From the NCBI RefSeq assembly GCF_016792905.1, contig NZ_JAEULP010000002.1:1-48596 (forward strand): a stretch of 48,596 nucleotides of DNA, read 5' to 3'. Source of the stretch: Tabrizicola sp. (GTDB taxonomy: Bacteria > Pseudomonadota > Alphaproteobacteria > Rhodobacterales > Rhodobacteraceae). A program made the position numbers and the translations under genes. The notes beneath the pieces were generated by a model. It saw nothing but the letters and a program-made list of their open reading frames with translations, was not told the DNA's origin and did no database searches. Positions 37,370 to 48,596 of the stretch are shown here, in pieces. Within the stretch, counting starts at the first letter, position 1; every line of letters begins with the position of its first letter.

Positions 37370-37972
37370 TCAGGCGGCGATATAGCGGTCGCGGCGATGG
37401 TTGATCGCGATGACGAGGTTCACCACCACGGCGCCGAGGAAGCTGATCAGGACGGCTTTGGCCTCGACCACAAGAAAGGCCAGCGCGAACAGCACCGCGT
37501 CGAAACCCAGTTGCACCCAGCCCGCCCGCCAGCCAAGCCGGTCCTGCAGGAGAAGGGCCACGATGCCGATGCCACCAAGGCTCGCCCCGTGCCGGAACAG
37601 CGCGAGGAGCGCCGAACCGGAGAGGAAGCCGAAGAGCACCGCGCCGAGCCAGGGGTTGAGGCTGGCAAAGCTGACCTGACCCGGCATCCAGAGGCTGAGG
37701 CCGGACAGAAGCCCGACGGCCAGAAAGGTCTTGGCGGTGAAGGCCGCACCCATCCGCAGGTAGCCGAGCAGGTAGAAGGGCAGGTTGATCGCGAAGAACA
37801 CCGGCCCGAAGCCCCAGCCGGTCGCGTAGGAGACCAGCACGGCCAACCCTGCGGTTTGCCCGGTGACAAGGCCGAGATGGGTGAGGATCACGATGCCGAA
37901 GGCCGCCATCGTCGCGCCATAGACGATGCCCTGGGCATCCTCGGTCAGGCTGTGGTGGTCGGTGTCGGTCAT
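37370..37972 (-). CDS. YitT-family membrane protein 1
   Basis: A 200-residue protein with about five or six hydrophobic spans, starting MTDTDHHSLTEDAQGIVYGATMAAFG and ending AINHRRDRYIAA. THLGLVTGQTAGLAVLVSYATG and HGASLGGIGIVALLLQDRLG are YitT-type (DUF161) blocks; function is unknown, though transport has been proposed. It is paralogous to the next gene upstream, sharing the TGQT-GLAVL core and the NHRRDRY C-terminus. A longer open frame has no support. Confidence 0.85.
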   Translation of the reverse strand: MTDTDHHSLTEDAQGIVYGATMAAFGIVILTHLGLVTGQTAGLAVLVSYATGWGFGPVFFAINLPFYLLGYLRMGAAFTAKTFLAVGLLSGLSLWMPGQVSFASLNPWLGAVLFGFLSGSALLALFRHGASLGGIGIVALLLQDRLGWRAGWVQLGFDAVLFALAFLVVEAKAVLISFLGAVVVNLVIAINHRRDRYIAA

Positions 37973-38013
37973 GGCAGCGGGACTACCCCGGCTATCAGGC
38001 GGACGAAAGACCT

Positions 38014-38637
38014 TCAGACTGCGACATATCGGTCGCGGCGGTGGTTCACCGCCAGGAACAGCGAGAAGACCGCCGCGCCGAGGAAACTGTAGCCGAGGGT
38101 GTCGAATGGCAGGACCAGCGCCGCAAGGCCGAAGATCACCACATCGGACAGAAGCTGGGCGTGGCCCGCCGGAAAGCCGGTACGGTCCTGCAACTCGATC
38201 CAGAGGACGGAAAGCCCGCCGAAGCTGCCGCCGTGACGGATGGCTGCCAGGCCCGCGATGCCGAAAAGGAGGCCGAAGAGGATGGCGGCCACCGCGGGCT
38301 CGATCCGGCCTAGCTCGATCCACTGCGGCAGGACGGCGACCAGCGCCGAAAGGGCGGCCGTCGTGACCAGCGTCTTCAGTGCGAACCGCGCGCCCATCCG
38401 GCGCCAGGCAAGGCCGAGGAAGGGCAGGGTGACGGCAAAATAGACCGCCGGAAAGGGCAGCCCGGTCAGATGGGCGATCAGCACCGCAAGCCCGGTGGTC
38501 TGGCCGGTGACAAAGCCCATATGGGTCAGGATATGCATGCCAAAGGCGGCCATGACGACGCCGAAGCCGATGCCCTGCGCATCATCCACCGCGCTGTGGC
38601 GGAGGCGGTCGGTCAGTTGGTCGGGACGGTCGGGCAT
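38014..38637 (-). CDS. YitT-family membrane protein 2
   Basis: A 207-residue paralogue of the preceding entry, upstream of it on the same strand and separated by 41 nt, so the two probably form an operon created by tandem duplication. The conserved segments are DDAQGIGFGVVMAAFGMHILTH-like at the N-terminus, THMGFVTGQTTGLAVLIAHLTG, RHGGSFGGLSVLWIELQDRTG and VNHRRDRYVAV. About six membrane spans. Substrate and function are unknown. A perfect palindrome lies 24 nt before the ATG. Confidence 0.85.
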   Translation of the reverse strand: MPDRPDQLTDRLRHSAVDDAQGIGFGVVMAAFGMHILTHMGFVTGQTTGLAVLIAHLTGLPFPAVYFAVTLPFLGLAWRRMGARFALKTLVTTAALSALVAVLPQWIELGRIEPAVAAILFGLLFGIAGLAAIRHGGSFGGLSVLWIELQDRTGFPAGHAQLLSDVVIFGLAALVLPFDTLGYSFLGAAVFSLFLAVNHRRDRYVAV

Positions 38638-38675: not shown

Positions 38676-39030
38676 GCATAACAAGTCAACATGGCTGACC
38701 TTTTATCGATCCGAGGCGCGGCGTCCGCGAGGCAGTAATCCGCAATTGGATACTGCCCGGAAACCATCCAGGATTGTGCGGATAGCTTGTTTCCCACGCA
38801 ATGATTGTTTGTGCGCAATCAAGTTGCGATTTTAATCATTGTGGCGAAATAAAGCTGAAAATCGATACCTCTTTCGCCATATTGGACGCCCATATTCAAT
38901 TACGGGTTGAATAAGACTTCCCAGGAAGACGGATCTGTTCAAACCAGACGGTCAAATTGTCGATCTGGTCGGGAACAAAGGCAAACTGGATCCGCCTTTC
39001 CCACTGGTGTTTGCCAATGGAGGCGATGAA
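38676..39030. other. AT-rich gene-free interval
   Basis: This interval is clearly richer in A and T than the rest of the window and contains short repeats of the type CGCAATCAAGTTGCGATTTTAATC-like halves (near 38811-38838). No reading frame with a ribosome site and family resemblance was found on either strand. The last 15 nt carry the GGAGG ribosome site of the next gene. Confidence 0.5.
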
Positions 39031-39627
39031 ATGACTTTTGAAATCATGCGGAAGATCAAGAAACTGCCGACGTCACGGACAGGCCTGGGCCAGACGGCCG
39101 CGCCGACCCTTCTGGTGGCGCTGATGCTCGCTGCAGCTCCGGCAGGCGCAGGCATTCTGGGGGTTGACGTTGATGTCGATGTCGACGTTGGCGGCGGCGG
39201 CGGCGGCGGCGGCGTCGGTGTTGGCGCGAGCGTCGGGGTAGGGGGTACCAATGTCGATGCCGACGTCGGACTTGGCGGTGCGGGGGTCGGTGTTGACGTC
39301 AGTATCGGCACTGGCGTTCCGGGCGGGCCGACAGTTCCGGGCATGCCGGGCGTCGTCAAGCCGGGCGTGCCGAAAGTCGCCTCCGGCGCAGGCGGCTTTG
39401 TCTGTGCCAAGGACGGCAATGAAACCGCCTACAACGGGTTCGTCGTCCGCGATCGTGACGGCGCCATGATCGGCTGGGTCCATGAAGCCACCGTTTCGAA
39501 AAGCGGAAAGCTGCTGGCGATGCGAATCCAGTCCACCGGAAACGGCTGCTACAAGCTGGCCAATGCGGGATTCCGGATCAGCAACAATGAAGTCTGGGCG
39601 AATGTCGACGGGAATTCGTTCCGCTGA
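39031..39627 (+). CDS. Exported protein with Val-Asp and Gly repeats
   Basis: A 198-residue protein not recognised as a named family. The start at ATG 39031 follows GGAGG. A signal-like hydrophobic stretch (APTLLVALMLAAAPAGAG) follows a basic 30-residue lead. Then come DVDVDVDVGGGGGGGGVGVG-type repeats (residues ~45-100), a Pro/Gly/Val stretch and a compact C-terminal domain (~120-198: FVCAKDGNETAYNGF, DGAMIGWVHEATVSKSGKLL, NGCYKLANAGFRISNNEVW) that resembles a PRC-barrel-like fold. Two cysteines may form a disulfide. The DNA repeat of GTTGAC/GTCGAT and GGC units is slippage-prone. Confidence 0.65.
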   Translation: MTFEIMRKIKKLPTSRTGLGQTAAPTLLVALMLAAAPAGAGILGVDVDVDVDVGGGGGGGGVGVGASVGVGGTNVDADVGLGGAGVGVDVSIGTGVPGGPTVPGMPGVVKPGVPKVASGAGGFVCAKDGNETAYNGFVVRDRDGAMIGWVHEATVSKSGKLLAMRIQSTGNGCYKLANAGFRISNNEVWANVDGNSFR

Positions 39628-42764: not shown

Positions 42765-43241
42765 ATGAAGCTTTCGACCAAGGGACGCTATGCGATGGTG
42801 GCGCTGGCCGACCTGGCGCTGGCCGAGGCTAAGTCGGGGGGCGACGACCTTGTCTCGCTGGCCGCGATCTCCAAGCGGCAGGACATCAGCCTGCCCTATC
42901 TGGAGCAGCTGTTCGTCAAGCTGCGCCGCGCGGGCCTGGTCGAGGCGGTGCGGGGGCCGGGAGGCGGCTACAAGCTCGCCCGCGCGCCCAACGACATCCG
43001 CATCTCGGAAGTGATGGAGGCGGTGGAGGAAACCGTCGATGCCATGCACACCGGCGCGGGGGCGAGCGGGGGGCTTTCCGGCAGCCGCGCCCAGTCGCTG
43101 ACCAATCGTCTCTGGGAAAGCCTGTCGGCCAACGTCTATGTCTTCCTGCATCAGGTGCGGTTGTCGGACGTGGTGAAGAACGACCTGACGCCCTGTCCCG
43201 CCGTGCCGAACCTGTTCCGCGTGGTCGATGACCATGACTAG
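42765..43241 (+). CDS. iscR: Rrf2-family regulator IscR
   Basis: A 158-residue winged-helix regulator that normally senses Fe-S status. MKLSTKGRYAMVALADLAL and LPYLEQLFVKLRRAGLVEAVRGPGGGYKL are the Rrf2 DNA-binding signature. The usual three-cysteine cluster site near residues 92-106 is missing: VDAMHTGAGASGGLSGSRAQ has none, and Cys144 (LTPCPAVP) is the only cysteine. A single-cysteine IscR is known in Rhodobacter sphaeroides. It is first in the suf operon and overlaps the desulfurase gene by 14 nt. Confidence 0.92.
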   Translation: MKLSTKGRYAMVALADLALAEAKSGGDDLVSLAAISKRQDISLPYLEQLFVKLRRAGLVEAVRGPGGGYKLARAPNDIRISEVMEAVEETVDAMHTGAGASGGLSGSRAQSLTNRLWESLSANVYVFLHQVRLSDVVKNDLTPCPAVPNLFRVVDDHD

Positions 43242-44277
43242 GCTCTATCTCGACTGGAACGCGACCGCCCCCCTCCGCCCCGAGGCGAAGGCGGCGATGG
43301 TCGCGGCGATGGAGGTGGTGGGCAACCCGTCCTCGGTCCATGCCGAGGGGCGGGCGGCCAAGTCGTTGATGGAACGGTCGCGCGCGAAGGTCGCGGCGGC
43401 CCTGGGCGCGGAGGGGGCGGACATCGTCTTCACCTCGGGTGCGACCGAGGCGGCGGCCCTCGCCTGCGCCGGGCGCGGGCTGGTCTGCGCGCCGGTCGAG
43501 CATGATGCGGTCGCCGCCTGGTGCGAGGCGGGCCTGCCGGTGGACGGGCAGGGCAGGGTGGCCGTCGCCGATCCGGCCCGGACCACCCTGCAACTGGCCA
43601 ACAGCGAGACGGGTATCCTTCAGGACCTGCCGCAGGGCCTTGCTGTCAGCGACCTGACGCAGGCTTTCGGCAAGGTGCCTTTCGCCTTCAACTGGCTGGG
43701 TTGCGACAGGGGCCTTGTGTCGGCGCACAAGCTGGGCGGGCCGAAGGGCATCGGCGCGCTGGTAGTGCGGCAGGGCATCGAGGTGCCGTCGCAGCTGAAA
43801 GGCGGCGGGCAGGAGATGGGCCGCCGCGCCGGGACCGAGAACCTGATCGGCATCGCCGGTTTTGCCGCCGCCGCCGAAGCCGCCGCGCGCGATCTGGCCG
43901 ATGGCGTCTGGGACGAGGTGGCAGAATTTAGAAATATTCTAGAATCAGAGTTGTCGGCTGCGGGAAAAGAAACTATTTCCGTCGGGAATGGTTCGCCAAG
44001 GCTGCCGAACACGCTCTGCCTGATTGCCCCCGGCTGGAAGGGCGAGACGCAGGTGATGGCGATGGACCTTGCCGGGTTTGCCATCTCGGCGGGCTCGGCC
44101 TGTTCCTCGGGCAAGGTGCGGGCCAGCCGGGTCCTGACTGCGATGGGCTTTGATCAGGCCCTTGCGGCGCAAGCGATCCGGGTCTCGCTTGGCCCGGGGG
44201 TGACAAAAGACGATGTGGGGCGGTTCGCGAAGACCTGGACCGCCGCCTATGCCAAGGCCCGCGCGCGGGCTGCCTGA
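43228..44277 (+). CDS. Cysteine desulfurase (NifS/IscS-like)
   Basis: A 349-residue PLP enzyme that releases sulfur from cysteine for cluster assembly. The substrate loop SSVHAEGRAAKS, PLP Lys168 in SAHKLGGPKG and catalytic Cys292 in SAGSACSSGKVRAS are intact; it is short for group I. The start is ATG 43228 (or 43234). Codons around 43924-43999 are AT-rich (AGA, ATT, CTA, TCA, ACT) unlike the rest of the gene, and include an ICE-like palindrome. It sits between iscR and sufB, separated from sufB by 12 nt. Confidence 0.93.
   Translation: MTMTRLYLDWNATAPLRPEAKAAMVAAMEVVGNPSSVHAEGRAAKSLMERSRAKVAAALGAEGADIVFTSGATEAAALACAGRGLVCAPVEHDAVAAWCEAGLPVDGQGRVAVADPARTTLQLANSETGILQDLPQGLAVSDLTQAFGKVPFAFNWLGCDRGLVSAHKLGGPKGIGALVVRQGIEVPSQLKGGGQEMGRRAGTENLIGIAGFAAAAEAAARDLADGVWDEVAEFRNILESELSAAGKETISVGNGSPRLPNTLCLIAPGWKGETQVMAMDLAGFAISAGSACSSGKVRASRVLTAMGFDQALAAQAIRVSLGPGVTKDDVGRFAKTWTAAYAKARARAA
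43927..43943 (+). promoter_or_regulatory. ICE-like palindrome inside the cysteine desulfurase gene
   Basis: TTTAGAA-ATA-TTCTAGA differs from the 7+3+7 Irr element TTTAGAAnnnTTCTAAA at one arm base. It spans codons 234-239 and needs rare codons (TTT AGA AAT ATT CTA GAA) in a gene otherwise rich in G/C-ending codons. It could be an internal operator acting on sufB and later genes, but chance or a horizontally derived patch is possible. Confidence 0.4.
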
Positions 44278-44289
44278 AAGGAAACGCCG

Positions 44290-45825
44290 ATGACCGCCGT
44301 TCTGGATACCACCGAGGCCGCCGCCCAAGCTGTTGAGGTTCGCGATGGTGTCGATCGCGAGACGATCGAGACCGTGCAGGCGATGGCCGGCAAGTACAAG
44401 TACGGCTGGGAAACCGAGATCGAGACGGAATACGCCCCGAAGGGCCTGTCCGAAGACATCGTCCGCCTGATCAGCGAGAAGAACGGCGAGCCGGAGTGGC
44501 TTCTGGACTGGCGTCTTGCCGCCTATCGCCGCTGGCTGAAGATGGAAGAGCCCCGCTGGGCGATGCTGAACTACCCGGAAATCGACTATCAGGACCAGTA
44601 TTACTACGCCAAGCCGAAGAGCATGGCGAAAAAGCCGAAGTCGCTGGACGAAGTCGATCCTAAACTGCTGGCGACCTATGCCAAGCTCGGGATTCCGCTG
44701 AAGGAACAGATGCTTCTGGCCGGTGTTGAAGGTGAGGCGGAACCGCGCAAGGTGGCGGTGGACGCGGTGTTTGACTCGGTGTCGGTGGGCACGACCTTCA
44801 AGGCTGAACTGGCGAAGGCCGGGGTGATCTTCTGCTCGATCTCCGAAGCCGTGCGGGAACACCCGGAGCTGGTGAAGCAGTACCTCGGCTCGGTCGTGCC
44901 GCCGACCGACAACTTCTTCGCCACGCTGAATTCGGCGGTCTTCTCGGACGGCTCCTTCGTCTACATCCCCAAGGGCACCAAATGCCCGATGGAACTGTCG
45001 ACCTATTTCCGCATCAACGCGGAAAACACCGGCCAGTTCGAGCGAACGCTGATCATCGCCGACGAGGGCGCCTATGTCAGCTACCTGGAAGGCTGCACCG
45101 CGCCGAAGCGCGACACCAACCAGTTGCACGCCGCAGTGGTCGAGATCGTGATCCTGAAGGATGCCGAGGTGAAATATTCCACGGTGCAGAACTGGTATCC
45201 GGGCGACGAGAACGGCAAGGGCGGGATCTACAACTTCGTCACCAAGCGCGCCGACTGCCGGGGCGACCGGGCCAAGGTGATGTGGACGCAGGTGGAGACG
45301 GGGTCGGCGATCACCTGGAAATACCCCTCCTGCATCCTGCGCGGCGACGATTCGCAGGGCGAGTTCTATTCGATCGCCATCGCCAACAACGCCCAGCAGG
45401 CCGATACCGGGACCAAGATGGTCCACCTTGGCAAGCGGACGAAAAGCCGGATCGTCTCGAAGGGCATCTCGGCGGGCCGGGCGCAGAACACCTATCGCGG
45501 CTTGGTGTCGATGCACCCGAAGGCCAAGGAAAGCCGCAACTACACGCAGTGCGACAGTCTCCTGATCGGCGACAAATGCGGGGCGCATACCGTGCCTTAC
45601 ATCGAAGTGCGCAACAATTCCTCGCGCGTCGAGCATGAGGCGACGACCTCGAAGGTGGATGAGGACCAGCTGTTCTACTGCCGCTCGCGCGGGATGGACG
45701 AGGAAGAGGCCGTCGCCCTGGTGGTGAACGGCTTCTGCAAGGAAGTCCTGACCGCCCTGCCGATGGAATTCGCGATGGAGGCGCAAAGCCTGGTCGCGAT
45801 CAGCCTGGAAGGCTCGGTCGGCTGA
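44290..45825 (+). CDS. sufB: Fe-S cluster scaffold subunit SufB
   Basis: A 511-residue scaffold protein of the SufBCD complex. [20 protein letters not shown] at the N-terminus, [26 protein letters not shown], the beta-helix core with [20 protein letters not shown] and [23 protein letters not shown], and the C-terminal [22 protein letters not shown] are conserved. AAGGAAA precedes the ATG. Its TGA shares an A with the ATG of the glycosyltransferase-like gene (TGATG). Confidence 0.97.
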
Positions 45826-48497
45826 TGGAAGACCGGGCGGAGACCGGGACTGCGGCCGAGGGGCCGGCGTCGGCACGTCCGGTCGGCACGGGCCGCAAGG
45901 TTCTGTTCTCGGCGATGAAGAACGAGGCGCCCTTCCTGCTGGAATGGGTCGCCTACCACAAGGCCATCGGCTTCGACGAGATCGTCATCTGTTCCAATCC
46001 CTCCAACGACGGGACCGAGGAATTGCTGGCCGCCCTGGCCGGGGCAGGCGAGATCGGGCACCTGCGCGCGACCGTTCCGCCGGGTGCCTCGCCGCAATAT
46101 CTTGCCACGCAGGCCTTCGAGCGCGAGGTGGGCTTCCGCGACGGCGACTGGTACCTGTGGCTGGACGCGGACGAGTTCCTCAATGTCCATGTCGGCGACC
46201 GGACGGTGACGGCCCTGGTGGATGCCATGGGGGGCAAGCAGGTCGCCCTGATCAAATGGCGCATCTTCGGGTCGAGCGGCCGGAAGACATTTCCCGGGCG
46301 CTTTGTGTCGGACGCATTCACCGGCGCGGCAGAGGCGAAGTTCAAGTTCAACTCGGGGCTGAAATCGTTCTTCCGGTTCGGCCCCGCCCTGCACGGATTC
46401 GCCCGCCACGGAATTCACCGTCCACGCGTTGTGCGGGATTCGGGGCTTGGTCCCGAGGATGTGCTGGTCGGAACCGGCAAGACCTCGGCGCCAGACCACA
46501 AGATCCACCGCCGCTGGCTGGCGGGTGACGATTTCGTCCGCACGAGCAGCGTCAGCCCGTTCGAATGCGGCTGGGCGCTGGCGCAAATCAACCACTACAT
46601 GGTCCGGACCGCGGATCACTTCGCGCTGAAAGCGCTGCGCGGCCGCGGATACATGCCGCGCCAGAGGGTCGGCACCAACTCCCGGCACACGCCGCAGTTC
46701 TTTGCCGAGCATGACCGCAACGAAGCGGAGGACCGCTCGATCCTGCATTGGGACGGTGCCGTGACCGAGGGGATCGCGCGACTGCGGGCGCTGCCCGCCG
46801 TGGCCGCCGCCGACCATGCCGCGCGTGACCTGGTGCGCGAGGCCCTGGCCCTCTCCGCTGCCGCGGCGGAACCGGACGCGCCCGAAACCGCCGTGGCGGC
46901 TGCGCGGCCCCGGCGGGTCTTGTTCTCGGCGATGAAGAACGAGGCGCCCTTCCTGCTGGAATGGGTCGCCTACCACAAGGCCATCGGCTTCGACCAGATC
47001 GTGATCTGTTCCAACCCTTCCAACGATGGAACCGAGGAACTGCTCGCCGCACTGGCCGGGGCGGGGGAGATCACGCATCTGAGGGCGGCTATTGTTCCGG
47101 GCAAGTCCCCGCAGCGAATCGCCTCAACCATCTTCACCCAGAAGCTCGGCTACCGGGACGGAGACTGGTATCTCTGGCTGGATGCCGACGAATTCCTGAA
47201 CGTGCATGTGGGCGATGGCACGGTCGGGGCCTTGATCCGGCACATGGGCGACAAGGCCTGCGCGCTTGTCAACTGGCGGGTCTTTGGCAGCAGCGGCAAC
47301 ACGGCCTTCGGCGGCCGGTTCATCGACGCTGCATTTTCGGGCGCCTCGCGAAGCGATTTCGCCGCAAACCGCGAGCAGAAGGCGTTCTTCAGGCAGTCCC
47401 CGGCCTTTCGCGGTTTCGCGCGCTTTGGCATCAATCGGCCGCTGGTGGCCCGGAATTCGACCCTGCGGCATGGCGATGTGCTGGCAGGGAGCGGCGCCAC
47501 GGTCTCGGAAAGCCATGTCATGCACGGCCGCTGGCTCAAGGGCGTCGACTCGGGCGGAACCGCGCGCGTCGCGGCAGAGGATTTCGGCTGGGATCATGCG
47601 CAGATCAACCATTACATGGTGCGGACGCGCGATTTCTTCGCGTTGAAACGCTTGCGCGGCCGGGGTTACAAGGCTGCCGCCACGGGCGAGGCGAACCTGC
47701 GGCATACCGACGAATTCTTCCGGGCGAACGACCGGAACGAGGCGGAGGATCGCTCGATCCTGCGCTGGCAGGATGCGGTGACGCAGGAAATCGCCCGCCT
47801 GATGGACCGGCCCGAAGTCGCAGAAGCGGCCGAGTCTGCCTCGGCCAAGGTCAAGGATGTCATGTCTCAGGTTGCACCGCCGCCCGCCGATCCGGCCCAA
47901 AGCCCCGATGTCGCGCCAAAGCCGAAGGTCCAGTTCAAGCTGACCTTCCCGCAGCAAGAGCGCGACTATATGGTCCGGGCCTATGCCGACGCGAAGGTGA
48001 TCCTGGAATACGGCAGCGGCGGGTCCACCGTCATGGCCGCGCAGGCAGGCTGCAGGGTGATAAGTGTCGAAAGCGACAAGGCCTGGGCGGAAAGCCTGGC
48101 GGGCGTGCTGAAGGGCATTTCGGACAAGGCGCATGTCCATCACGCCGACATCGGCCCGACCCGTGCCTGGGGCTACCCGAGCCAGAATGACAGGGTCCAG
48201 TCCTATCACACCTACGCCCTGTCCGTCTGGGACCGGCGCGATTTCCAGGACCCCGACCTCGTGCTGATCGACGGGCGGTTCCGTGCCGCCTGCCTGGCTG
48301 CGGTCAAGATGCGCGCAAGGCGCCCCACGACGGTGTTGTTCGACGATTATGTCGACCGCCGCTACTATCACGCGGTGGAGAAGCTGGCCGTGAAGGAAGA
48401 GGTCATTGGCCGCCTGGCCCGCTTCACCGTCACCCCCGGGCCGGTTCCGCCAGAGATGCTTACCCAGGTCATCGGCTGGTTCCACGACCCGCGCTGA
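45825..48497 (+). CDS. Twin glycosyltransferase-like domain/methyltransferase fusion
   Basis: An 890-residue protein. Residues ~25-340 and ~364-690 are two homologous GT2-type domains (Glyco_tranf_2_4 class): each has KNEAPFLLEWVAYHKAIGFD, SNPSNDGTEELL, the DXD-bearing DWYLWLDADEFLNVHVGD (Asp114/116 and Asp453/455) and INHYMVRT. Residues ~710-890 hold a methyltransferase-like Rossmann segment (VILEYGSGGSTVMAA, VISVESDKAWAESL, VLIDGRFRAACL). No signal peptide or membrane span. The domains are exactly 339 residues apart and share a 74-nt identical DNA stretch. It lies between sufB and sufC, coupled to sufB by TGATG. Donor and acceptor are unknown. Confidence 0.85.
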   Translation: MEDRAETGTAAEGPASARPVGTGRKVLFSAMKNEAPFLLEWVAYHKAIGFDEIVICSNPSNDGTEELLAALAGAGEIGHLRATVPPGASPQYLATQAFEREVGFRDGDWYLWLDADEFLNVHVGDRTVTALVDAMGGKQVALIKWRIFGSSGRKTFPGRFVSDAFTGAAEAKFKFNSGLKSFFRFGPALHGFARHGIHRPRVVRDSGLGPEDVLVGTGKTSAPDHKIHRRWLAGDDFVRTSSVSPFECGWALAQINHYMVRTADHFALKALRGRGYMPRQRVGTNSRHTPQFFAEHDRNEAEDRSILHWDGAVTEGIARLRALPAVAAADHAARDLVREALALSAAAAEPDAPETAVAAARPRRVLFSAMKNEAPFLLEWVAYHKAIGFDQIVICSNPSNDGTEELLAALAGAGEITHLRAAIVPGKSPQRIASTIFTQKLGYRDGDWYLWLDADEFLNVHVGDGTVGALIRHMGDKACALVNWRVFGSSGNTAFGGRFIDAAFSGASRSDFAANREQKAFFRQSPAFRGFARFGINRPLVARNSTLRHGDVLAGSGATVSESHVMHGRWLKGVDSGGTARVAAEDFGWDHAQINHYMVRTRDFFALKRLRGRGYKAAATGEANLRHTDEFFRANDRNEAEDRSILRWQDAVTQEIARLMDRPEVAEAAESASAKVKDVMSQVAPPPADPAQSPDVAPKPKVQFKLTFPQQERDYMVRAYADAKVILEYGSGGSTVMAAQAGCRVISVESDKAWAESLAGVLKGISDKAHVHHADIGPTRAWGYPSQNDRVQSYHTYALSVWDRRDFQDPDLVLIDGRFRAACLAAVKMRARRPTTVLFDDYVDRRYYHAVEKLAVKEEVIGRLARFTVTPGPVPPEMLTQVIGWFHDPR

Positions 48498-48517: not shown

Positions 48518-48596
48518 ATGCTTGAAATCAACAACCTGCACGTCAAACTTGAAGATGAGGACAAGGTGATCCTCCGTGGTGTCGACCTGAAGGTCG
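48518..48596 (+). CDS. sufC: Fe-S assembly ATPase SufC (3' truncated)
   Basis: The window ends 26 codons into this gene: MLEINNLHVKLEDEDKVILR then GVDLKV is the characteristic SufC N-terminus of the ABC-type ATPase that powers SufBCD. GAAAG and AAAGGAA lie before the ATG. It follows the glycosyltransferase-like gene by 20 nt, so the suf operon resumes here. Confidence 0.9.
   Translation, partial: MLEINNLHVKLEDEDKVILRGVDLKV

Follow-up and report, generated by a model that had tools for sequence, protein, structure and literature searches.

Operons that encode essential machines are usually taken as closed units. What, then, is a large gene for a predicted sugar- and methyl-transferring protein doing between sufB and sufC, inside the iron-sulfur (Fe-S) cluster assembly operon of the alphaproteobacterium Tabrizicola sp. 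(Rhodobacteraceae)? The gene lies on contig NZ_JAEULP010000002.1 of assembly GCF_016792905.1, and the entire contig (C47 in our numbering), which is 48,596 bases long and breaks 79 nucleotides into sufC, is referred to here as the window. Our answer, to which we give a probability of about 0.58, is that the junction is a swappable slot expressed with suf, and that its occupant here is a predicted cytoplasmic glycan-decorating enzyme.

We measured the gaps between suf genes in 88 relatives besides the window, comprising 27 congeners, one further locus (L054), and 60 loci from other genera of Rhodobacteraceae. The full-length SufC of locus L038 served as the query for placing sufC, and a junction was counted as open when at least 300 nucleotides lie between the sufB stop and the sufC start. 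The congener set excludes G006, G010, G014, and G016, where assembly of the sufB-sufC pair is incomplete. The 60 loci from other genera are not a random sample, since 40 are mostly the best SufB matches listed and 20 were picked further down the list, with G244 omitted because of its short contig. The sufB-sufC junction is open in 81 of the 88 relatives (26 of 27 congeners, L054, and 54 of 60 other genera), whereas in the remaining seven both genes are present but lie 19–99 nucleotides apart, and the slot is empty. In the same loci the flanking junctions reach 300 nucleotides in none of 87 cases between the desulfurase gene and sufB and in none of 86 between sufC and sufD, the latter being mostly a one-base overlap. 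Among 40 loci from other families of the class, one per family and drawn from 71 matching genomes, the gap between sufB and sufC is at least 300 nucleotides in only two (469 and 356 nucleotides; median of the set 44.5) and that between sufC and sufD in one. Because 81 of 88 relatives are open compared with 2 of 40 loci outside the family, the open junction is a trait of Rhodobacteraceae and not of one strain. A preliminary description of the window, made from its letters alone, had viewed the gene as a stand-alone peculiarity, which these counts contradict; the random recent insertion in one strain that it had named as the contrary outcome does not appear in the comparison of sufB-sufC content across relatives. 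We therefore consider it probable that the sufB-sufC junction of Rhodobacteraceae suf operons is a cargo slot, and the only measured junction that tolerates extra genes. One open junction (81 of 88) beside two closed ones offers a natural system for studying how cargo enters an essential operon.

The features at this junction in the window are as follows.

44290..45825, + strand: sufB (NCBIfam equivalog NF008773, 904.8 bits against a cut-off of 717)
45825..48497, + strand: slot cargo, a GT2-GT2-methyltransferase-like fusion of 890 amino acids (ORF translation, Pfam, 3cvo profile match)
45894..46860, + strand: glycosyltransferase (GT) module a, PF13704, DAD motif intact (Pfam, alignment)
46911..47850, + strand: GT module b, PF13704, DAD motif intact (Pfam, alignment)
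47931..48494, + strand: methyltransferase-like (MT) domain of the 3CVO type (family profile, alignment)
48518..48596, + strand: sufC, 5' end only, translation MLEINNLHVKLEDEDKVILRGVDLKV, cut by the contig end

As the preliminary description had noted, sufB and sufC enclose the gene, whose 890-codon open reading frame (ORF; 45825–48497, + strand) starts with an ATG at 45825 that shares its A with the TGA stop of sufB (TGATG). Twenty nucleotides separate its end at 48497 from the sufC ATG at 48518. Two GT2-like domains and a methyltransferase-like domain had also been recognized, and here they are recovered as two PF13704 stretches and a profile match to PDB entry 3cvo_A (E 4e-80); the boundaries proposed for them (residues 25–340, 364–690, and 710–890) are about right. 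In Pfam the protein matches PF13704 (Glyco_tranf_2_4) with an E-value of 1.6e-39 over the two stretches, scoring 134.7 bits as a whole and 72.2 and 71.6 bits for the modules taken separately, against a curated cut-off of 27.5; matches to PF00535 and PF01697 are weaker. Both modules contain WYLWLDADEF and so keep intact the DxD-type motif, which in GT2 enzymes binds metal and the sugar nucleotide, and D91, D93, and E94 are invariant across the 10 aligned GT rows (alignment A2). By sequence, the nearest solved PF13704 relative is GmaR (PDB 22ao), whose GT2 motif region, including DADE, aligns with an E-value of 0.0002. The window gene differs from GmaR and from PF13704 enzymes in having two tandem GT modules fused to a methyltransferase-like domain. 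Elsewhere in the window genome (G000:C23:565-1897) two more strong PF13704 matches lie adjacent to each other.

The C-terminal domain matches no Pfam family at 1e-3, Methyltransf_24 reaching only an E-value of 0.018 and 16.3 bits (cut-off 26.3). Nor does the window protein match PF05050 (FkbM) at 1e-3; FkbM is a separate cargo family. The match between the family profile of this domain and 3cvo_A covers profile positions 1–189 of 191. Residues L25, E26, Y27, G28, G30, S32, E47, and D49 are invariant in 18 rows and include a glycine-rich loop and a following acidic residue, a recognized motif of class I S-adenosylmethionine (SAM) methyltransferases. The 890-residue product thus carries two predicted sugar-transferase modules and one predicted SAM-methyltransferase-like module. 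The protein in 3CVO is a relative of the domain over its full length, but is free-standing and has no GT modules. Within Rhodobacteraceae, its closest relatives are genes of the suf slot. It was deposited under the title 'Methyltransferase-like protein of unknown function', and gains a genomic home from these comparisons; we take it to be SPO2022 of Silicibacter pomeroyi, a name for which no link to suf was found in the open PMC literature. The G+C content of GT modules a and b and of the MT domain (0.649–0.669) is close to that of the window (0.658), and a foreign composition of the gene was accordingly rejected.

What fills the slot in other genomes? Mechanical calling yields 173 same-strand ORFs in 53 clusters, among which many singletons are probably not genes. 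For the cargo count, representative queries taken from the sufB strand were searched on both strands of 82 slots, with the window and L054 included. MT is matched in 36 loci, YbjQ in 36, FkbM in 22, GT2 in 17, pyruvyltransferase in 4, and a further family in 3, and none of these families is present in 7 of the 82 slots. All 118 locus-by-family matches run in the direction of sufB. Most slots (65 of 82) have a first mechanical ORF that overlaps the sufB stop or begins no more than 30 nucleotides from it. Cargo on the other strand was sought and not found: 59 slots contain a reverse ORF of at least 100 amino acids, the longest in each was compared with Pfam at 1e-3, and 0 of 59 matched. Sixty slot ORFs, chosen by cluster so that the counts confirm names and not frequencies, were assigned by Pfam to FkbM (20), pyruvyltransferase (4), RfbT (4), YbjQ (3), and GT2_4 (1). 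Anti-phage defence cargo is not indicated for 60 slot ORFs compared with PADLOC, which returned only weak mad2 matches, in seven of them. GT2-MT fusions occupy the slot outside the genus in G116, G349, G432, G511, and L054, and occur away from the suf operon in L040, L050, and G248. Open frames of 1071 and 1119 amino acids in G020 and G001 might suggest a SufB-GT-MT fusion, which was rejected because SufB itself occupies frames of just 510 and 558 amino acids in these two genomes. Two congeners stand apart in content: a pyruvyltransferase is the sole recognized cargo in L059 (G018), and the slot of L068 (G023) is empty (19 nucleotides). By eye, small and dissimilar membrane-protein-like ORFs often come first, ahead of YbjQ, in the slots of L073, L094, L103, L120, L126, and others.

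Slot content turns over between lineages. Identity to the window at sufB is correlated with that at sufS (rho 0.79, n = 26) compared with rho -0.08 (n = 24) for sufB and the slot MT. On a quick, weakly supported sufB tree of 89 rows, MT changes state 14 times, YbjQ 20 times, FkbM 21 times, and GT 12 times. Between G001 and G020 the GT part is 97–99% identical in DNA over roughly the first 1050 nucleotides past the sufB stop and 77–80% identical thereafter, with sufB at 83–95%; the corresponding dS values are 0.058 for GT, 0.569 for MT, and 0.387 for sufB. The slot of G007 (L074) contains, in order, a small membrane protein, the start of YbjQ, a second sufB tail, FkbM, and MT. This displaced tail, about 450–510 nucleotides past the sufB stop, matches G026 at 60 of 64 positions and G015 at 58, compared with 52 for the sufB of G007 itself, and FkbM directly follows sufB in both G026 and G015. 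A second, decayed sufB tail also lies about 320–390 nucleotides past the sufB stop in G182 (L103); a residue pair that it has in common with the sufB of the same locus suggests that it may have arisen by local duplication. Displaced sufB tails point to cargo that arrived along with a piece of sufB, and the displaced tail together with mosaic operons points to lateral exchange of slot cargo. Such exchange between lineages would probably proceed by recombination in which the conserved ends of sufB and sufC serve as homology. The window genome has a DUF2460 gene, presumably a gene-transfer-agent gene, and it is our guess that gene transfer agents deliver slot cargo.

Turnover of this kind might also be seen if the sufB-sufC junction were merely the least constrained spot in the operon, where genes land and decay without a selected function. 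The seven empty slots are in keeping with such neutral passengers, as are apparent remnants, namely a 116-residue MT-cluster ORF in L061 and the YbjQ start without its remainder in L074. We nevertheless regard this explanation as highly unlikely. The dN/dS ratios are well below 1, at 0.11–0.22 for GT (6 pairs) and 0.08–0.31 for MT (8 pairs) compared with 0.035–0.098 for sufB, and the low values of MT and GT, a sign of purifying selection between relatives, argue for function. The uniform direction of all 118 cargo matches also speaks against it, as does the narrow set of families, FkbM being found in 16 of 54 other-genus slots compared with two matches in the whole window genome (a different genome and thus a rough yardstick).

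How the slot is expressed bears on what its cargo might do. Two genes lie upstream of sufB in the window.

42765..43241, + strand: iscR-like regulator of the Rrf2 family, in the suf cluster ahead of the desulfurase gene (PF02082, E 1e-32; TIGR02010 IscR 139.7 bits, below the cut-off of 207.55)
43228..44277, + strand: cysteine desulfurase, IscS/NifS-like (PF00266; TIGR03402 219 bits, below the cut-off of 530.75)

A scan for promoter-like sites found three on both strands where 0.6 are expected. The sole + strand site lies inside the desulfurase gene (43918–43945), and none was found on this strand between it and the contig end. Terminator-like sites are no more frequent than chance (two found, 4.1 expected). 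In Rhodobacter sphaeroides, RSP_0439, the gene at the sufB-sufC junction, is reported to be co-transcribed, promoter P3 has been placed within iscS, and the log2 changes in an iscR mutant are 0.67 for RSP_0439, 0.67 for sufB, and 0.68 for sufC (PMC6956336; PMC4618611). Given the overlap between its ATG and the stop codon of sufB, the window gene should be made with SufB, presumably from a shared transcript, and slot cargo in general, which is kept in the operon direction, would be expressed with suf, possibly under the control of iron or IscR. The most likely job of the window protein would be that of a cytoplasmic enzyme that attaches sugars to a surface glycan, or to a precursor of one, and methylates them. 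If it is made with SufB, this decoration would rise with Fe-S demand. The preliminary description had wavered between a passenger and a link from Fe-S supply to surface glycans. Its first suggestion is favored in the form of exchangeable passengers under selection, while the putative glycan link is suggested by the resemblance of cargo proteins to known families (GT2, FkbM, pyruvyltransferase, and RfbT). Were the junction such a slot, surface-glycan enzymes in many Rhodobacteraceae would be predicted to respond to iron and Fe-S stress.

Several observations weigh against this answer. Faster evolution of MT could explain part of its low rho. Several sufC-sufD steps of G001 and G020 are likewise 95–100% identical, and because near-identity reaches this far the exchange in this pair is not specific to the slot, the operon being a mosaic. 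The FkbM of G007 is unlike those of G026 and G015 and is nearest to that of L041 (56%), so that the donor of its cargo lies outside our sample. The cargo found most often in other genera, YbjQ (34 of 54), does not belong to the glycan enzymes, and FkbM-type cargo also matches the TRM5/TYW2 RNA methyltransferase model in 8 of 60 ORFs (best E-value 4.1e-8, compared with 1.3e-21 for FkbM). A glycan cluster was sought near the non-suf relatives L040, L050, and L046, with none among the scanned neighbors. For R. sphaeroides, the authors attribute the expression of the operon in the iscR mutant to a promoter that acts independently of IscR (PMC4618611; PMC6956336). Finally, the MT gene has sufB, sufC, or both as neighbors in all 30 of the best 3CVO-type MT loci that were fetched, a closer tie than would be expected of a random passenger.

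The idea of a glycan cluster around non-suf GT-MT relatives is thus unsupported at L040, L050, and L046, and other GT2_4 genes are nearby only at L206 and L210. At L206:1512-3227 (G439) a 571-residue fusion of GT2_4 and Methyltransf_24 adjoins a distant GT-MT relative, so that the pairing recurs there with a methyltransferase of a different family. Next to the non-suf GT-MT fusion at L210 (G248) are genes for a methyltransferase and a sulfatase that carries RTX repeats, as well as a further GT2_4 gene.

The last of the contrary points raises a different explanation, in which the 3CVO-type MT and YbjQ would serve Fe-S or metal homeostasis as accessory parts, for example by modifying a tRNA, a protein of the SUF system, or a small ligand for metal. 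The GT modules would have been fused to that MT later, and the place of these genes would itself be functional. We checked MT positions in 44 match rows from genomes with a listed sufB place (G000 and G001, both with MT in the slot, are not in this table). Of the 30 rows with at least 50% identity to 3CVO, 28 are no more than 3 kb from sufB, compared with 1 of the 14 rows below 50%. The two exceptions are G244, where MT proved to neighbor sufC and sufD at the edge of a contig, which makes it a 29th case near suf genes, and G150, where it is not beside suf genes. Most of the 30 loci that were fetched also have MT a short way upstream of sufC, YbjQ is named as a putative heavy-metal-binding family, and some slot methyltransferases match RNA methyltransferase models. 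Because the 3CVO-type MT is so tightly tied to the operon, an Fe-S-linked role keeps some plausibility. However, MT was matched by the 3CVO query in just 102 of 394 family genomes (at 1e-30), compared with sufB in 195 of 199 (at 1e-150), 7 of 88 slots are empty, and the divergence of MT is uncoupled from that of sufB. On balance an accessory role seems rather unlikely.

The window gene carries two GT modules, and their origin is a separate question. One further feature is relevant here.

45894..46073, + strand: stretch of module a, candidate recombination or conversion tract (80–92% DNA identity to 46911–47090)

The two modules share 80–92% DNA identity over their first 60 residues and 50–80% in later 20-codon steps. 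Module a groups with the GT modules of G016 and L039 (support 81/97, not starred), and module b groups with L038 (support 92/88, not starred) and then with L058. A simple tandem duplication, with a and b as sisters, is rejected by the approximately unbiased (AU) test (p 0.0015), although this constraint was chosen after the larger tree was already known. Other slot ORFs of the MT cluster are at most 571 amino acids long, and no second double-GT slot gene occurs among the matches listed. We read the double GT as a likely product of recombination between two slot alleles. Could it instead be an assembly chimera of two strain alleles, the real gene being an ordinary single-GT fusion? The genome is a draft of 91 contigs with a break 79 nucleotides into sufC, each module groups with a different congeneric allele, and the tandem arrangement is seen in no other slot gene, all of which would fit a chimera. 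Yet a single open frame of 890 codons runs through the linker, the DAD motif is kept in both modules, and the G+C content of both fits the window, and we think a chimera quite unlikely. Outside the genus, L035 (G032:C13) has two tandem GT2-like stretches, with no sufB match in the fetched stretch.

Single genes at this junction have been described before. The isc-suf operon of R. sphaeroides has the same gene order, with the co-transcribed hypothetical gene RSP_0439 at the same place; the 2019 paper mentions variation of non-annotated ORFs across the family (PMC6956336), and in the available parts of the two reports the junction holds one unnamed ORF, with no junction-specific slot, cargo families, or exchange described (PMC6956336; PMC4618611). 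In Caulobacter crescentus a small ORF, a putative ADP-ribosylglycohydrolase, lies between sufB and sufC, and RT-PCR products were obtained across the gene junctions of the operon; here the ORF is small and of another protein family (PMC11475020). Muricauda olearia Th120, far outside Rhodobacteraceae, carries momL between sufB and sufC, a single case reported there as not previously seen (PMC5484670). In our searches of the open PMC literature we found these single junction genes and no account of a family-wide, junction-specific, exchangeable slot. A wider version of our answer can be put forward tentatively, and we would sooner doubt than assert it as a whole: the Rhodobacteraceae junction would be an expression slot whose glycan-modifying and other cargo is swapped between species by recombination at the sufB end and sufC start, possibly with delivery by gene transfer agents, surface chemistry would be switched with iron and redox stress, and the junction would have been filled independently in Caulobacter and Muricauda.

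Two minor observations concern other parts of the window. The protein encoded at 39007–39627 (+ strand) has a long low-complexity tract of Gly, Val, and Asp and no Pfam match at 1e-3. At 37370–38637 (- strand) there are two adjacent YitT-type membrane-protein-like ORFs, the first of which matches PF02588 and the second of which is alike by eye only.

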